Positions 4,371-9,755 of a stretch of DNA of 64,000 nucleotides are shown in pieces. A program made the translations under genes and the position numbers. Origin of the DNA: Sulfurihydrogenibium subterraneum DSM 15120 (GTDB lineage Bacteria; Aquificota; Aquificia; Aquificales; Hydrogenothermaceae); NCBI RefSeq assembly GCF_000619805.1, contig NZ_JHUV01000008.1, forward strand, positions 248,001 to 312,000. The letters run 5' to 3'. Every line of letters starts with the position of its first letter. Within the stretch, counting starts at the first letter, position 1. The notes under the pieces are model-generated. The model saw only the letters and a program-made list of their open reading frames with translations. It searched no databases and had not been told where the DNA came from.

Positions 4371-4592
4371 ATGAAAGATATAAACTTAGATACAACAGTT
4401 GAGCAAGTTTTAAGGAAGTATCCATTTACAAGAAGATTTTTTGAATCTAAAAATATGTACTGTAATATATGTGCGTGTAAACCTCACGAAAGACTGCAGA
4501 TAGCTGCAATAAACTACGGTCATGACCCAAAACAATTTGTAGAGGAGTTAAAGCAGTTTATAGCAGAGTATGGAAAACAACAATCCAGCTAA
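4371..4592 (+). CDS. DUF1858-like small cysteine protein
   Basis: A 73-residue protein resembling DUF1858 domains, small helical modules found alone or fused to ScdA-like iron-sulfur repair and hybrid-cluster proteins. Visible: TTVEQVLRKYPFTRRFFE, then three cysteines in MYCNICACKP, then a helix FVEELKQFIAEYG. The cysteines suggest metal or redox-cofactor binding, which is inference. Strong AAAGGAGG site eight bases before the ATG. Its last 23 bases overlap the recG start, so it is co-translated with recG. Function unknown. Confidence 0.7.
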   Translation: MKDINLDTTVEQVLRKYPFTRRFFESKNMYCNICACKPHERLQIAAINYGHDPKQFVEELKQFIAEYGKQQSS

Positions 4593-6975
4593 AAATCTTA
4601 TAGAAAAACTTATAAATGCAGACGATACCTATTTAAGTAGAGTAAAAAATTTAAGTGATACTCTAACTACACTGTTAAAAGGGAAAGTTCCTGAGGGTAT
4701 AATTCAAGACTTACATTTCTTAGACAGTATGAACCCAACTAAAAAAAGAAATTTTTTAAGAATAATACTCTCTCATCTAAACTCTCAACCTTATAAGGAA
4801 GTTAAACCCACGGAAACAGAAGAAAAACCTAAAAATAGATTTACAATTTTTGACCTTGAAAAGTATCAGATAGAAAACCTCTCATCTCTCACAACTTTAG
4901 AAAAAAAATCTTTTAAAAAAATCATGTTAAAAAATGTTTACCAAGCTCTTTACAACTTTCCTGAAAAGTATGAAGACAGAAGAGTTAAAAAAATACTTAA
5001 AGTTAAAGATGGAGAGACAGGGACGTTTTACGCACAGGTAGAAGATATAAAAAGAGTAAACAGAGGAAAGCTGAAAGTTGAAGTTATTTTAAAACAAGAC
5101 AATGTCTCATTTTCTGCTTTGTTTTTCTACGACAAACCATACCTTTACACATATTTTAGAAAAGGCAAAACTGTAAAACTTTTTGGAAAAGTGAATGTCT
5201 ATAAAAAAACATACTCTTTAGTTCAGCCAGAATTGCTTGAAGTAAAAGAAGACTCTATAGATACTATAGCTCCTGTTTATTCACTTCGTGGAGACAGCTC
5301 CATAAAAACTACAGGACAGACTATAAATCATCTAAGAAGAGGAATATTTAAGATAGTAGAAAAGTTTTCAGACGTAAAAGATTTCATTCCTTCTTATATC
5401 TTAGAAAAATATGGATTTCCACCTCTATCAAAAGCGTTAAAATTTGTCCACCATCCAGATGAAAACGCTGACGTTGACGATTTAAACAACTTTCAGGATA
5501 TACACCAAAAAAGACTTATATTTGATGAGTTATTTTTACTGCAACTTGCACAAAAATACAGAAAAGCTCTTCTACAAAGACACCCATCTTATAGTATAAA
5601 GGTAAAAGAAAATTTTCTTCAAGAGGTAGAAAAAAACCTTCCTTTCCAGCTTACAAACGCTCAAAGAAGAACGATAAAAGAGATTTTATCGGATTTAGAA
5701 AAAGACATACCAATGAACAGAATGATTCTGGGAGACGTTGGAAGTGGGAAAACAGTTGTAGCTGCAATAGCATCTTTGGCAGCTGCCTTAAATAATTACC
5801 AATCAGCAGTAATGGCACCAACAGAAATACTTGCACAGCAACACTATAACAACTTTAAAAACTTCTTAAAACCTTTCTTAAAAGACTATGAAATAGCACT
5901 TTTAACAGGTAGTCTCTCTTCATCGGAAAAAAAGAAGATATACAAAGCTGTAGAAAGTGGTATAGTAAAAGTAGTTATTGGAACTCACGCATTACTTGAA
6001 GAAAAACTTAAATTTAAAGATTTAGCTTTAGTAGTAGTTGACGAACAGCATAGATTTGGAGTAGAGCAAAGAAAGTCTTTAATAGAAAGGTCAGAGAAAA
6101 AACCTCACGTAATGGTTATGACGGCTACACCAATACCAAGAACATTAGCCCTTGCATACTACGGAGACTTGGACATCTCTAAATTAGATGAACTACCAAA
6201 AGGTAGAAAACCTGTAAAAACAGTTATTCTTTTTGAAAGAGAAAGGGATAAACTTTACAGTGTTATAAAACAAGAGTTAGAAAAAGGAAGACAAGTATTT
6301 GTAGTCTATCCTTTAATCCAAGAGTCAGAAAAGACAGACTTAAAATCAGCTGAAGAAGGATTTAAACACTATCAAGAGGCTTTTCCAGATTATAAGGTGG
6401 TTTTACTACATGGTAAGATGAAACAGGAAGAAAAAGACAGAATAATGCAAGAGTTTAAAGAAGGAAAAGCTCATATACTTGTATCAACAACAGTTATAGA
6501 AGTAGGAGTTGACATACCAAACGCAACAGTAATGGTTATAGAAGAAGCTCACAGATTTGGACTTTCTCAAATTCACCAGTTAAGAGGTAGAATAGGAAGA
6601 GGACAGTATGAAGGATACTGTTTTTTAATGGCTCCAGATGAACTGTCTCAACCACAGCAAGACTCCTCAAAAGAAAAATCAAGACTAAAAGCGTTAGAGA
6701 GGTTGAAAATATTAGTTAAAACCAGTAATGGCTTTGAAATTGCAGAAAAAGATTTAGAGCTAAGAGGTGCAGGAGATATAGCGGGAACAAGACAGTCTGG
6801 AGAAAGTGCCTTTATGTTAGCAGATTTAAAAAGAGATGAAGAGTTATTAGAGATAGCTACAAAAGAAGCTCAAGAGATTATAAACCAAGACCCAACACTT
6901 AGTAAATATAAAGAGTTAAAAGATATAATTTACAAAATGTATGCTGATAGATTTGACTTGGTAAATATTGCATAG
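4570..6975 (+). CDS. recG: ATP-dependent DNA helicase RecG
   Basis: Branch-migrating superfamily 2 helicase that regresses stalled forks and processes Holliday junctions. It is 801 residues, about 100 longer than E. coli RecG because of an N-terminal extension known from Aquifex and Thermotoga. The wedge/OB domain lies around residues 140-230, Walker A GDVGSGKT near residue 389, DEQHRFG near 491, and the second RecA domain ends with the QLRGRIGRG motif. Starts inside the upstream DUF1858 gene. Promoter of the next operon overlaps its stop codon. Confidence 0.96.
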   Translation: MENNNPAKNLIEKLINADDTYLSRVKNLSDTLTTLLKGKVPEGIIQDLHFLDSMNPTKKRNFLRIILSHLNSQPYKEVKPTETEEKPKNRFTIFDLEKYQIENLSSLTTLEKKSFKKIMLKNVYQALYNFPEKYEDRRVKKILKVKDGETGTFYAQVEDIKRVNRGKLKVEVILKQDNVSFSALFFYDKPYLYTYFRKGKTVKLFGKVNVYKKTYSLVQPELLEVKEDSIDTIAPVYSLRGDSSIKTTGQTINHLRRGIFKIVEKFSDVKDFIPSYILEKYGFPPLSKALKFVHHPDENADVDDLNNFQDIHQKRLIFDELFLLQLAQKYRKALLQRHPSYSIKVKENFLQEVEKNLPFQLTNAQRRTIKEILSDLEKDIPMNRMILGDVGSGKTVVAAIASLAAALNNYQSAVMAPTEILAQQHYNNFKNFLKPFLKDYEIALLTGSLSSSEKKKIYKAVESGIVKVVIGTHALLEEKLKFKDLALVVVDEQHRFGVEQRKSLIERSEKKPHVMVMTATPIPRTLALAYYGDLDISKLDELPKGRKPVKTVILFERERDKLYSVIKQELEKGRQVFVVYPLIQESEKTDLKSAEEGFKHYQEAFPDYKVVLLHGKMKQEEKDRIMQEFKEGKAHILVSTTVIEVGVDIPNATVMVIEEAHRFGLSQIHQLRGRIGRGQYEGYCFLMAPDELSQPQQDSSKEKSRLKALERLKILVKTSNGFEIAEKDLELRGAGDIAGTRQSGESAFMLADLKRDEELLEIATKEAQEIINQDPTLSKYKELKDIIYKMYADRFDLVNIA

Positions 6976-6996
6976 TTAAAACACAGAATCTATAAT
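6968..6996 (+). promoter_or_regulatory. Promoter of the KaiC-like/HTH gene pair
   Basis: TTGCAT (6968-6973), exactly 17 bases, perfect TATAAT (6991-6996), then a GGGGGG ribosome site before the start at 7028. The -35 box covers the recG stop codon, so the pair can be transcribed apart from recG. Confidence 0.65.
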
Positions 6997-7027
6997 TAAT
7001 TAAATCAATCAAATATCGGGGGGACAA

Positions 7028-7945
7028 ATGGATAAAAGAAAAAAAGTAGAAACAATAGAAGAAACAGAGTTTGAAGAATCAGAAAAGCAGGAATATCACA
7101 AACCAGAACCAGATTTAGAAGCTGTATTTACAGGATCGGAAGCTCTAAAAAAAGCTCCTAAGATTTATGGTGTATCTACGGGGGTTGAAGGGTTAGATGA
7201 TTTATTTTTTATTGTAACAAGTGAAGGAGGAAAAATCGTTAAGAAAACGTTAGGTGGCATTCCAGCTTACTCTGTAATGAATATTACAGGTGTATCAGAT
7301 ACAGGAAAATCTCTTATGGTAGAGCAATTTACAGTCCACCAAGCAAGTAAAGGAAATAAAGTTACATTTATAACAGTTGAATCTCCTGCTAACTTTGTAG
7401 TAGCTTCTTTAAAACTCAGAGCTTCTGCAATGGGATTAAACTTTGACGACTTTCAAGATAATATTATTCTAATAGATGCAGCTTCTTCTACTAAAATAAG
7501 AGAAAATGTTCCTGATTTACTTGCAACTCTTGCTTACGTTATCCAGCAGTATAAAGTAAAGTTTACAGTAATAGACTCAGTAACTGGACTTTTTGAAAAC
7601 AAAGAGATGATGGCAAGAGCCATAGTAAGAAGATTGTTTAACTTTATGAAAAAATGGTATCAAACTGCTTTATTTGTGTCTCAAAAGAGAAGTGGACACG
7701 AAGAATTAACAGCAGAAGCTGCAGGTGGTTATGCGGTAGGACACATAGTAGATGGAACTATGGTATTGGCAAAAGAGCTGATAGACTCTCCATTTAAAGC
7801 AAAAATGTACAAAAAAGAGATAGGAGATATTGTAAGACTTTTTAGAATAGATGGTTGTAGAATGTCTGGACACGATACAAAAACACACTTTTTAGAAATA
7901 ACACAAACAGGATTAGTAAAAATAAAACAACCTATAGGAGGTTGA
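7028..7945 (+). CDS. KaiC-like RecA-fold ATPase (AF_0795-type family)
   Basis: A 305-residue single-domain KaiC/RadA-type ATPase. After an acidic 45-residue N-terminus come STGVEGLDDLF (typical KaiC entry motif), Walker A GVSDTGKS at about residues 88-95, a catalytic Glu in FITVESP, Walker B FTVIDS at about 180, and a C-terminal half with SQKRSG. I recall this as the KaiC-domain family named after AF_0795, scattered among archaea and thermophilic bacteria. The next gene, four bases on, is its usual partner. There is only one KaiC domain and no kaiA or kaiB, so a circadian clock is not implied; it may be a switch ATPase. Function unknown. Confidence 0.82.
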   Translation: MDKRKKVETIEETEFEESEKQEYHKPEPDLEAVFTGSEALKKAPKIYGVSTGVEGLDDLFFIVTSEGGKIVKKTLGGIPAYSVMNITGVSDTGKSLMVEQFTVHQASKGNKVTFITVESPANFVVASLKLRASAMGLNFDDFQDNIILIDAASSTKIRENVPDLLATLAYVIQQYKVKFTVIDSVTGLFENKEMMARAIVRRLFNFMKKWYQTALFVSQKRSGHEELTAEAAGGYAVGHIVDGTMVLAKELIDSPFKAKMYKKEIGDIVRLFRIDGCRMSGHDTKTHFLEITQTGLVKIKQPIGG

Positions 7946-7949
7946 AAAA

Positions 7950-8618
7950 ATGGTCATTCAAATCACATCAATCCCAGAAAACACACAAGATGTAGAACAC
8001 TTAGTAAGTAGAGTTTTTTTCAAATCAATTGACCTACTGGGAGGATTAAGTAAGTTAGCGGAGTTTAGAACGTTAACTTGGCTTCCATCATTGGCAAGAG
8101 CTTCTTATGTTATTGTTTTAAGAGAAGAGTATCTAAAAACAGAAGAAGAGATAGCAGAAAAAGTAGGGCTTACTAAAAACACTGTAAGAAACATACTCAG
8201 AGCAGACCCTACTTTAGCATTAGAAAAGATTAAAAAGTTGGAAGAGCTTGCTAAAGAAGAGCTTAAAGGAATGAAAGTTCACACTGCAGGTGGTATAACA
8301 AAACTTGCATACAAAATGATAAAAGAAGGTCAAGACGCAGAAACACTTGTTCACCACTGTCAAATTGTATCTACAGAAGTTGCACAAATATTAGATGTTC
8401 CATGGGCTTATATGGTACTAAAACATATAAAAGGTATAAAGTATCCAATAACTGAAGCTAATCAGTTATTAGAAAGATTAAAAGACGTAAAAATAAAAGG
8501 TCATGACGCAGCTGAAATTTTAAATAAACTACAGTATCCAATTAAAAATCCAGCTACACTTTTACACGAAATAAAGCAAGTATTAAGTAGTAAAGAAGAA
8601 GCTACTTACGGTATCTAA
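7950..8618 (+). CDS. KaiC-adjacent regulatory protein with HTH domain
   Basis: A 222-residue protein with a helix-turn-helix of sigma-factor/regulator type around residues 65-88 (KTEEEIAEKVGLTKNTVRNI), preceded by an alpha-helical segment and followed by a helical C-terminal half without known catalytic motifs. It follows the KaiC-like gene by four bases with an AGGAGG ribosome site inside the end of that gene. Matches what I know of the near-KaiC regulatory domain family, defined by this gene neighbourhood. Inference: the ATPase controls its DNA binding. Target genes are unknown; the adjacent promoter at 6968 is an obvious candidate. Confidence 0.75.
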   Translation: MVIQITSIPENTQDVEHLVSRVFFKSIDLLGGLSKLAEFRTLTWLPSLARASYVIVLREEYLKTEEEIAEKVGLTKNTVRNILRADPTLALEKIKKLEELAKEELKGMKVHTAGGITKLAYKMIKEGQDAETLVHHCQIVSTEVAQILDVPWAYMVLKHIKGIKYPITEANQLLERLKDVKIKGHDAAEILNKLQYPIKNPATLLHEIKQVLSSKEEATYGI

Positions 8619-8651
8619 ATAGATATCAAAATCAGCTTCTTAATCAATAAT

Positions 8652-8681
8652 GGTGGGGTTTATATACCTCTGCCGATTTTT
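8652..8681 (+). terminator. Possible terminator behind the KaiC-like pair
   Basis: A GC-rich imperfect hairpin (GGTGGGG at 8652-8658 against CCTCTGCC at 8667-8674, with wobble pairs), followed by GATTTTT. It lies 34 bases after the HTH gene stop. Moderately weak. Confidence 0.4.
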
Positions 8682-8812
8682 AATCTTAGTTAATCCAATC
8701 CTGTTTTATAACCCTAAGAACTTGATAATAAAAAACTTTAGGTATTTATTTTAAGCTTTCTTAATTTCACTATGGAAAATCATATATAGATATGCCTATA
8801 TAATCTATGCCA

Positions 8813-8832
8813 TGTCTATAATTGTCTATAAT
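8813..8832 (+). repeat. Perfect tandem 10-bp repeat upstream of DHH operon
   Basis: TGTCTATAAT occurs twice back to back (8813-8822, 8823-8832), each copy holding a TATAAT. A third TATAAT sits at 8799-8804 within TATGCCTATATAATCTATGCC. No good -35 box stands at 16-18 bases from any of them. Rest of the 279-bp gap (8619-8897) is AT-rich with nothing else clear apart from the possible terminator. Confidence 0.55.
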
Positions 8833-8897
8833 AATGTTAGAATTAAATACTTTACAGTTAGCAATTATTAACTTAAAATATTGTATGGAGGTTTAAA

Positions 8898-9755
8898 ATG
8901 AAAACTGTTTGTATTTATCATAAAAACTGTACCGATGGAACTACAGCAGCTGCAATATTGCTGCTGAAATATCCTGATTGTAAAGCATTCCCATTAGACC
9001 ACAACTATAGAGATGAAGAGTTTCAACCAATATTAGAAGAAGTAGATGAAAACACTACAGTTTATATAGTAGATTTTTCAATTAAACAACCATACTTTGA
9101 AAAGCTGATAAGTAAGGCAAAAGAAGTTATAAATATAGACCACCACATAAGCGCAAAAGATATGTTAGAAGAGTTTACTAAAAAATATAATAACTTTAAA
9201 TTAGTTTTTGATAACGACAAATCAGGTGCATCTTTAACTTGGTATTATTTGTTTGGCAATGAACCACCACCTATTGTTAAGTATGTTGAAGATAAAGATA
9301 TATGGAAATGGACTTTTGGAGATACAACAAAATACGTCAACGATTACCTATTTTTATATACCAATAAACCAGAAGAGTTAAAACAATTTTTTGACAAAGA
9401 TGTAAACGAAATTACAGAAAAAGGTAAGATAATAAATCAATATACTACATACCTTATAGATAGCTTTGTAGAAAAATCAAAAGACCTTTATATACAAATT
9501 GGAAGTTATAAAGTAAGAGCTTACAACACAGGACTATTCCAATCAGAGATAGGGAACAAGTTAGCAACTTTACACGACCAAGCCGTCTGTCTGTTTTCTA
9601 TTAACGGAGACTATGTAAAACTAAGTTTTAGAAGCCTAGACCACCATAATCCTTCTGCACTCGATTTAGCAAAAATGTTAAATGGTGGCGGGCACAGAAA
9701 TGCAGCTGGAGCTTCTATAAATTTAAGAGAGTTTTGTAATATATTACTAATATAA
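8898..9755 (+). CDS. DHH-family phosphoesterase
   Basis: Predicted metal-dependent phosphoesterase of the DHH/DHHA1 superfamily (relatives cleave nanoRNA, cyclic dinucleotides or pyrophosphate). The 285-residue product shows the N-terminal HKNCTDGTTAAA motif, VDFS near residue 57, the DHH signature in INIDHHIS near residue 80, and the DHHA1 glycine motif GGGHRNAAG near the C-terminus. There are no membrane or regulatory domains. GGAGG stands just before the ATG. Leads an operon with a TetR regulator and dtd. Exact substrate cannot be told. Confidence 0.83.
   Translation: MKTVCIYHKNCTDGTTAAAILLLKYPDCKAFPLDHNYRDEEFQPILEEVDENTTVYIVDFSIKQPYFEKLISKAKEVINIDHHISAKDMLEEFTKKYNNFKLVFDNDKSGASLTWYYLFGNEPPPIVKYVEDKDIWKWTFGDTTKYVNDYLFLYTNKPEELKQFFDKDVNEITEKGKIINQYTTYLIDSFVEKSKDLYIQIGSYKVRAYNTGLFQSEIGNKLATLHDQAVCLFSINGDYVKLSFRSLDHHNPSALDLAKMLNGGGHRNAAGASINLREFCNILLI

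Follow-up and report, generated by a model that had tools for sequence, protein, structure and literature searches.

The window analysed here, a stretch of 64,000 nucleotides from Sulfurihydrogenibium subterraneum, includes two adjacent genes that we call K and H (Table 1). K encodes a KaiC-like ATPase and H a helix-turn-helix (HTH) protein, and the genome has one full copy of each. The four-base spacing reported in the first-pass annotation is correct. Upstream of K is recG, which ends close enough on the same strand for read-through into K and H to be possible. The gene after H starts at 8898, and the description of the pair as an isolated module is appropriate for this genome locally; it does not extend to other genomes, where the gene for reverse gyrase (rgy), smc or other genes adjoin the pair. 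recG adjoins K in only part of one genus, the window included, and for that reason we rejected the adjacency as weak functional evidence.

Table 1. Features of the K-H locus (positions are those of the window)
Feature	Position	Strand	Remarks
recG	end 6975	+	upstream of K, 52 nt away
recG-K gap	6976..7027	+	52 nt; contains TATAAT, candidate promoter (from sequence)
K, single-domain KaiC-like ATPase	7028..7945	+	TIGR03878 thermo_KaiC_2; ORF, 305 aa
Walker A of K, GVSDTGKS, residues 88-95	7289..7312	+	G88, D91, T92, G93 and K94 invariant in 49 homologues
Loop of K, residues 223-234	7694..7729	+	follows invariant SQKR; H224, L227 and E230-G234 invariant in 49 homologues
H, HTH protein with near_KaiC domain	7950..8618	+	TIGR03879; ORF, 222 aa
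Core of H, near-KaiC domain with HTH, about 100 residues	8031..8330	+	LTWLPSL..EEIA..LG..TVRNIL.ADP..HTAGGxAKLAY; kept in all long and short H forms, including those of 122-127 aa
C-terminal extension of H	8331..8615	+	absent from Thermotogota and Thermomicrobium forms

The pair had also been credited with its own promoter and a possible terminator, and neither is borne out. There is a TATAAT at 6991-6996 with TTGCAT 17 nt upstream of it, but a consensus promoter scan of 6800-9000 gave 9 promoter-like sites where 10.2 are expected, and this TATAAT is not among them; the sequence upstream of K is not conserved within the genus. The terminator scan found none on the + strand, and an Rfam search gave no match for a structured RNA at the locus. 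Two further genes of the window may be recorded here. That at 8898-9755 is for a DHH/DHHA1 phosphoesterase-like protein that resembles the NrnA and RecJ models only distantly, with 29.7 bits where the cut-off is 350, and directly upstream of recG, at 4371-4592, is a gene for a small protein that falls just below the cut-offs of the prismane_assoc/DUF1858 models.

K belongs to TIGR03878, with 473.3 bits against a curated cut-off of 232.2 and positions 1-258 of the 259 in the model covered. It matches Pfam KaiC (PF06745) at E=1.2e-54 with one domain, and comparison with 49-65 homologues shows little or no variation in the Walker A motif, in E118 or in D183, the aspartate of Walker B, in agreement with the single KaiC domain and intact Walker motifs first described. 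The AlphaFold model of K (pLDDT 87.1, pTM 0.84) has as its nearest solved folds PH0284 (2dr3, 5.4e-17) and also the KaiC CI domain, and a match to Rad51 (4e-5) places K in the RecA superfamily. K falls far short of the equivalogs with which it was compared, with 42.5 bits for ArlH/FlaH (cut-off 215) and 21.5 bits for RadA/Rad51 (TIGR02236, cut-off 361). A timing device like that of cyanobacterial KaiC is very improbable, as K has the KaiC domain in common with it but has one domain and not two, and at 33.6 bits against a cut-off of 546.25 already fails membership of the circadian KaiC family (TIGR02655).

The archaeal single-domain KaiC-like ATPases PH0284 (2dr3), PH0186 (2zts) and SSO2452 (2w0m) have the same fold as K, and PH0284 shares with it a stretch of the form SQ...GG...H.VDG, although identity is about 22%. 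K differs from the PH0284 group in a conserved RxxRxDGCRMxGHD and in having extra, strongly conserved residues inserted into the loop that follows SQKR. In the alignment this loop, residues 223-234, corresponds to FGGPGVEH and its surroundings in PH0284; it has pLDDT below 50 and is predicted to have no stable fold. It probably lies where RecA-type proteins have their DNA-contacting L2 loop, and is the obvious candidate for a contact with H or DNA.

H scores 125.1 bits with TIGR03879 (cut-off 65.1) over residues 28-127, and within that region, at residues 57-100, is an HTH that matches HTH_3 at 1.5e-5 and is related also to the ParB-HTH and sigma region 4 models. The profile search found no known sensor domain in H, as had been stated before. 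The HTH core, including the region of the recognition helix, is conserved across phyla. A short H of 122-147 aa is found in most of the Thermotogota read and in Thermomicrobium, and one Thermotogota H (L260:8555-9292) has the core domain in tandem, with a ClpB/ClpC-like gene, identified from sequence, after it. The structure model of H has pLDDT 80.7 and pTM 0.59, and a fold search with it against the PDB gave no match below E 0.3, so no function can be read from the fold.

Both families are thus already named in NCBIfam, and with regard to its components the system is not an undescribed one. The name of TIGR03879, near_KaiC_dom, implies a KaiC-family gene close by, and in the window H follows 4 nt downstream of K. 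As named, neither family has a function. To this we can add that the pair co-occurs and in places is co-located with reverse gyrase, that H exists in long, short and tandem-domain forms, and that the two genes are separated in Aquificaceae.

K is present in 114 and H in 116 of 136 Aquificota genomes (80 and 82 respectively of the 88 good genomes). Hydrogenothermaceae and some Aquificaceae have the two side by side; in most Aquificaceae and in a deeper family (f5), which we have taken to be Desulfurobacteriaceae, they are unlinked. In Aquificaceae H is often downstream of rpsA and/or a gene for an HU-like protein, and upstream of a TamB-like gene. Outside Aquificota the genes are adjacent in Campylobacterota, Thermodesulfobacteriota, Thermotogota, a contig labelled Omnitrophota and the megaplasmid of Thermomicrobium roseum, with the order H-K in two Thermotogota. 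All of the K-H loci seen are bacterial. K was found in none of the archaeal control genomes, Archaea, Firmicutes, Dictyoglomi and Thermus being covered only through 14 control genomes. T. composti, a Thermus, has both K and rgy. The earlier statement that the families are regular neighbours, mostly in thermophiles and with no assigned function, therefore holds for bacteria.

The divergence of K is correlated with that of H (r=0.80, and 0.83 within Hydrogenothermaceae plus Aquificaceae; Mantel test, 0/2000), and this, together with their being neighbours in several phyla whichever gene comes first, argues for a joint function. Some groupings in the K and H trees jointly cut across species groups, an example being the Thermocrinis-like G053, which groups with Sulfurihydrogenibium, and the tree pattern is consistent with transfer of K and H as a pair in some lineages.

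There are several variations on the arrangement. In G030 (L203:8710-10239) a TnpB-like gene, with a weak match to Cas12f1-like TNB, separates K from H, as though a mobile element had inserted there, and in G107 (L188) about 15 kb separate H from K, with rpoB/rpoC-type genes in the gap. Several Aquificaceae with H elsewhere (L116-L125) have a small XRE-type HTH gene next after K. The Thermocrinis-like genomes G052-G058 (L183, L184) have two H paralogues, one beside K and a divergent one near rpsA, HU-like and TamB-like genes, and one of the Campylobacterota (G422, L208 and L209) has two copies of K, one in a K-H-rgy cluster and the other without H.

In the 80 loci compared the commonest neighbour other than H is rgy. 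In Persephonella-type and Nitratiruptor-type genomes K, H and rgy follow each other on one strand, and the reverse gyrases of these two groups are close in the rgy tree, so this is perhaps one old arrangement and not two. G078 has K and rgy side by side in divergent orientation, and both its rgy and its H group with Thermodesulfobacteria. In Thermodesulfobacterium it is smc that follows K-H. In several Nautiliaceae-type genomes K and rgy co-occur though far apart. In four genomes of one Aquificota genus (G105-G107 and G110; family f3, genus g22) rgy lies in frames of 1424-1688 aa where about 1150 is usual, and an intein or a fusion is possible.

The co-occurrence extends well beyond the linked cases. 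Reverse gyrase is present in all 11 of the Campylobacterota that have K (298 genomes, 14 with rgy; Fisher 1e-17) and in all 13 of the Thermodesulfobacteriota that have it (237 genomes, 14 with rgy; Fisher 1.6e-20), and in 8 of the 11 K-positive Thermotogota (98 genomes, 31 with rgy; Fisher 0.004), but the genomes are related and the tests treat them as independent, so that all of these p-values overstate the association. For the good Aquificota genomes rgy is above cut-off in 77 of the 80 with K, and one of the remaining three has a partial match. The 29 K carriers of other phyla that were reached via their loci include 24 with rgy above cut-off and four more with matches that we read as partial rgy at contig ends.

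K thus predicts reverse gyrase, but the relationship is one-way and not absolute. Reverse gyrase is found without K in T. maritima, M. jannaschii, S. acidocaldarius, G113, G044, G192 and G203 (the last two both Campylobacterota), G696 and 23 Thermotogota, and K without reverse gyrase in the Thermotogota G697, G729 and G730 and in the draft Aquificota genomes G108 and G111. A Thermomicrobium draft genome has been reported to be without rgy (PMC9789041), while T. roseum has K-H. We count all of these cases against a module that works with reverse gyrase, and also the trees of K and rgy, which agree only in part, with G104 and G065 in disagreement. In favour of it is that K is the more conserved of the two, mean identity being 69% for K and 48% for reverse gyrase. 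Thermophily itself could drive the association, and this confounder is still contained in the counts.

Joint absence provides evidence of a different kind. Two near-complete Aquificota genomes, G033 (one contig) and G079, have no K, H or rgy, while their congeners have all three. In G030, a relative of G033, rgy lies near 0.22 Mb and K-H near 1.30 Mb, so the genes are unlinked. At the site in G033 that corresponds to the G030 rgy gene, which is within the first 1.16 Mb, the part that was read, the flanks align at 88-94% but only the two ends of rgy are left and about 3 kb is missing, and rgy was therefore lost there rather than never gained. A genome-wide search of G033 found neither K nor H.

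With regard to the literature, a search by family accession gave no paper on the K or H family, and KaiC and reverse gyrase appeared together in one paper, on an unrelated subject. Within the literature searched, which excludes most subscription journals, we found no link of TIGR03878 or TIGR03879 to reverse gyrase and no description of an accessory gene of this kind for reverse gyrase (TIGR01054), to which K and H have no sequence relation; what they have in common with it is the nested distribution and, in some lineages, a shared operon. A 100-fold heat induction of rgy is reported in Nautilia profundicola, in a paper that does not mention KaiC (PMC2628731). Archaeal KaiC signalling hubs were proposed by Makarova et al. 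2017, as cited in PMC5847659, and resemble K-H in that a KaiC-type ATPase is predicted to act as a hub with partner proteins; K-H differs from them in being bacterial in all loci seen, in being tied phylogenetically to reverse gyrase and in having no sensor domains. The families K and H are thus known, and it is the association with reverse gyrase that is new relative to the literature searched.

Our preferred interpretation, which we put forward tentatively and at somewhat less than even chances, is that K and H together make up a single module, specific to thermophiles, which takes part in the same process as reverse gyrase. H would bind DNA through its conserved HTH core. K, an ATPase of the KaiC/RecA type and probably ring-forming, would dock on H and use ATP to switch or remodel the H-DNA assembly. 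The process shared with reverse gyrase would be the maintenance of chromosome topology and integrity at high temperature, and the module would tend to be kept or lost together with that enzyme. This interpretation builds on what the genomes show: K and H are paired in several phyla, K co-occurs with reverse gyrase in one direction, the genes are co-located in some lineages, and in one genus K and H are absent where rgy has decayed. DNA binding by H, a ring of K, contact between K and H and switching by ATP are inferred. As a mechanism an ATPase-controlled DNA-binding protein, which the first-pass annotation had proposed, is plausible. The link to reverse gyrase may be physical or may come from shared conditions.

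A conventional transcription switch is less likely. H would then regulate a heat or growth-temperature regulon, perhaps including rgy, and K would sense the ATP state and license H, making the link to reverse gyrase regulatory and not mechanical. The relationship of the HTH to HTH_3, ParB-HTH and sigma region 4 models is what such a regulator would have, NCBI describes TIGR03879 as a probable regulatory domain, and the archaeal hub proposal (cited in PMC5847659) offers a precedent among KaiC-like ATPases. In one genome a ClpB-like gene comes after K-H, and in single genomes dnaK is nearby, as judged from sequence. However no word was shared by the upstream regions of K and rgy clearly beyond shuffles, in a crude ungapped test on 9 genomes with separate genes (G078 was left out as K and rgy there share one intergenic stretch), and the lack of conservation upstream of K within the genus also speaks against a switch. 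The unusually slow evolution of H, the absence of a sensor domain, the recognition helix conserved across phyla and the lack of any conserved site upstream speak more for a general role on DNA than for a narrow promoter regulator, which is the less likely of the two.

We think it improbable that K-H and rgy are independent thermophily genes, which co-occur only since each is of use at temperatures above about 60 C and each spreads by horizontal transfer. The named K carriers that we could identify are indeed of thermophile lineages, the K and rgy trees are just partly congruent and there are exceptions both ways. However independence does not readily account for two phyla in which the K carriers fall almost perfectly within the rgy carriers, for co-location in more than one arrangement, or for joint absence within single genera from loci that are unlinked.

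A stronger form of our preferred interpretation would have K-H as a dedicated accessory of reverse gyrase in bacteria, with H marking or holding sites on DNA and K using ATP to deliver, gate or restrain reverse gyrase there, and so setting the level of positive supercoiling as temperature changes. We give this rather a low probability.

There is a smaller chance that K and H form a recombination or repair complex, in which K would be a RecA/RadA-paralogue-like ATPase acting on DNA and H its loading factor, with rgy, recG and smc as neighbours because of repair. Membership of the RecA superfamily, the sequence match to the archaeal RadA paralogue SSO2452, recG upstream of K in the window and part of the genus, and smc downstream of K-H in Thermodesulfobacterium would all fit, but the best matches of K are to KaiC and PH0284 and not to RadA, and the recG adjacency is restricted as described above.

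No protein is better known as a signature of life at high temperature than reverse gyrase, yet little is known of what regulates or assists it in bacteria. Its co-occurrence and, in some lineages, co-location with K-H is the most informative context of the pair, and was missed in the first-pass annotation. Nested in rgy carriers, sharing operons with rgy and absent where rgy has decayed, K-H is a concrete candidate for a partner of reverse gyrase, and if that role is correct two widespread families that have names but no function would gain one.
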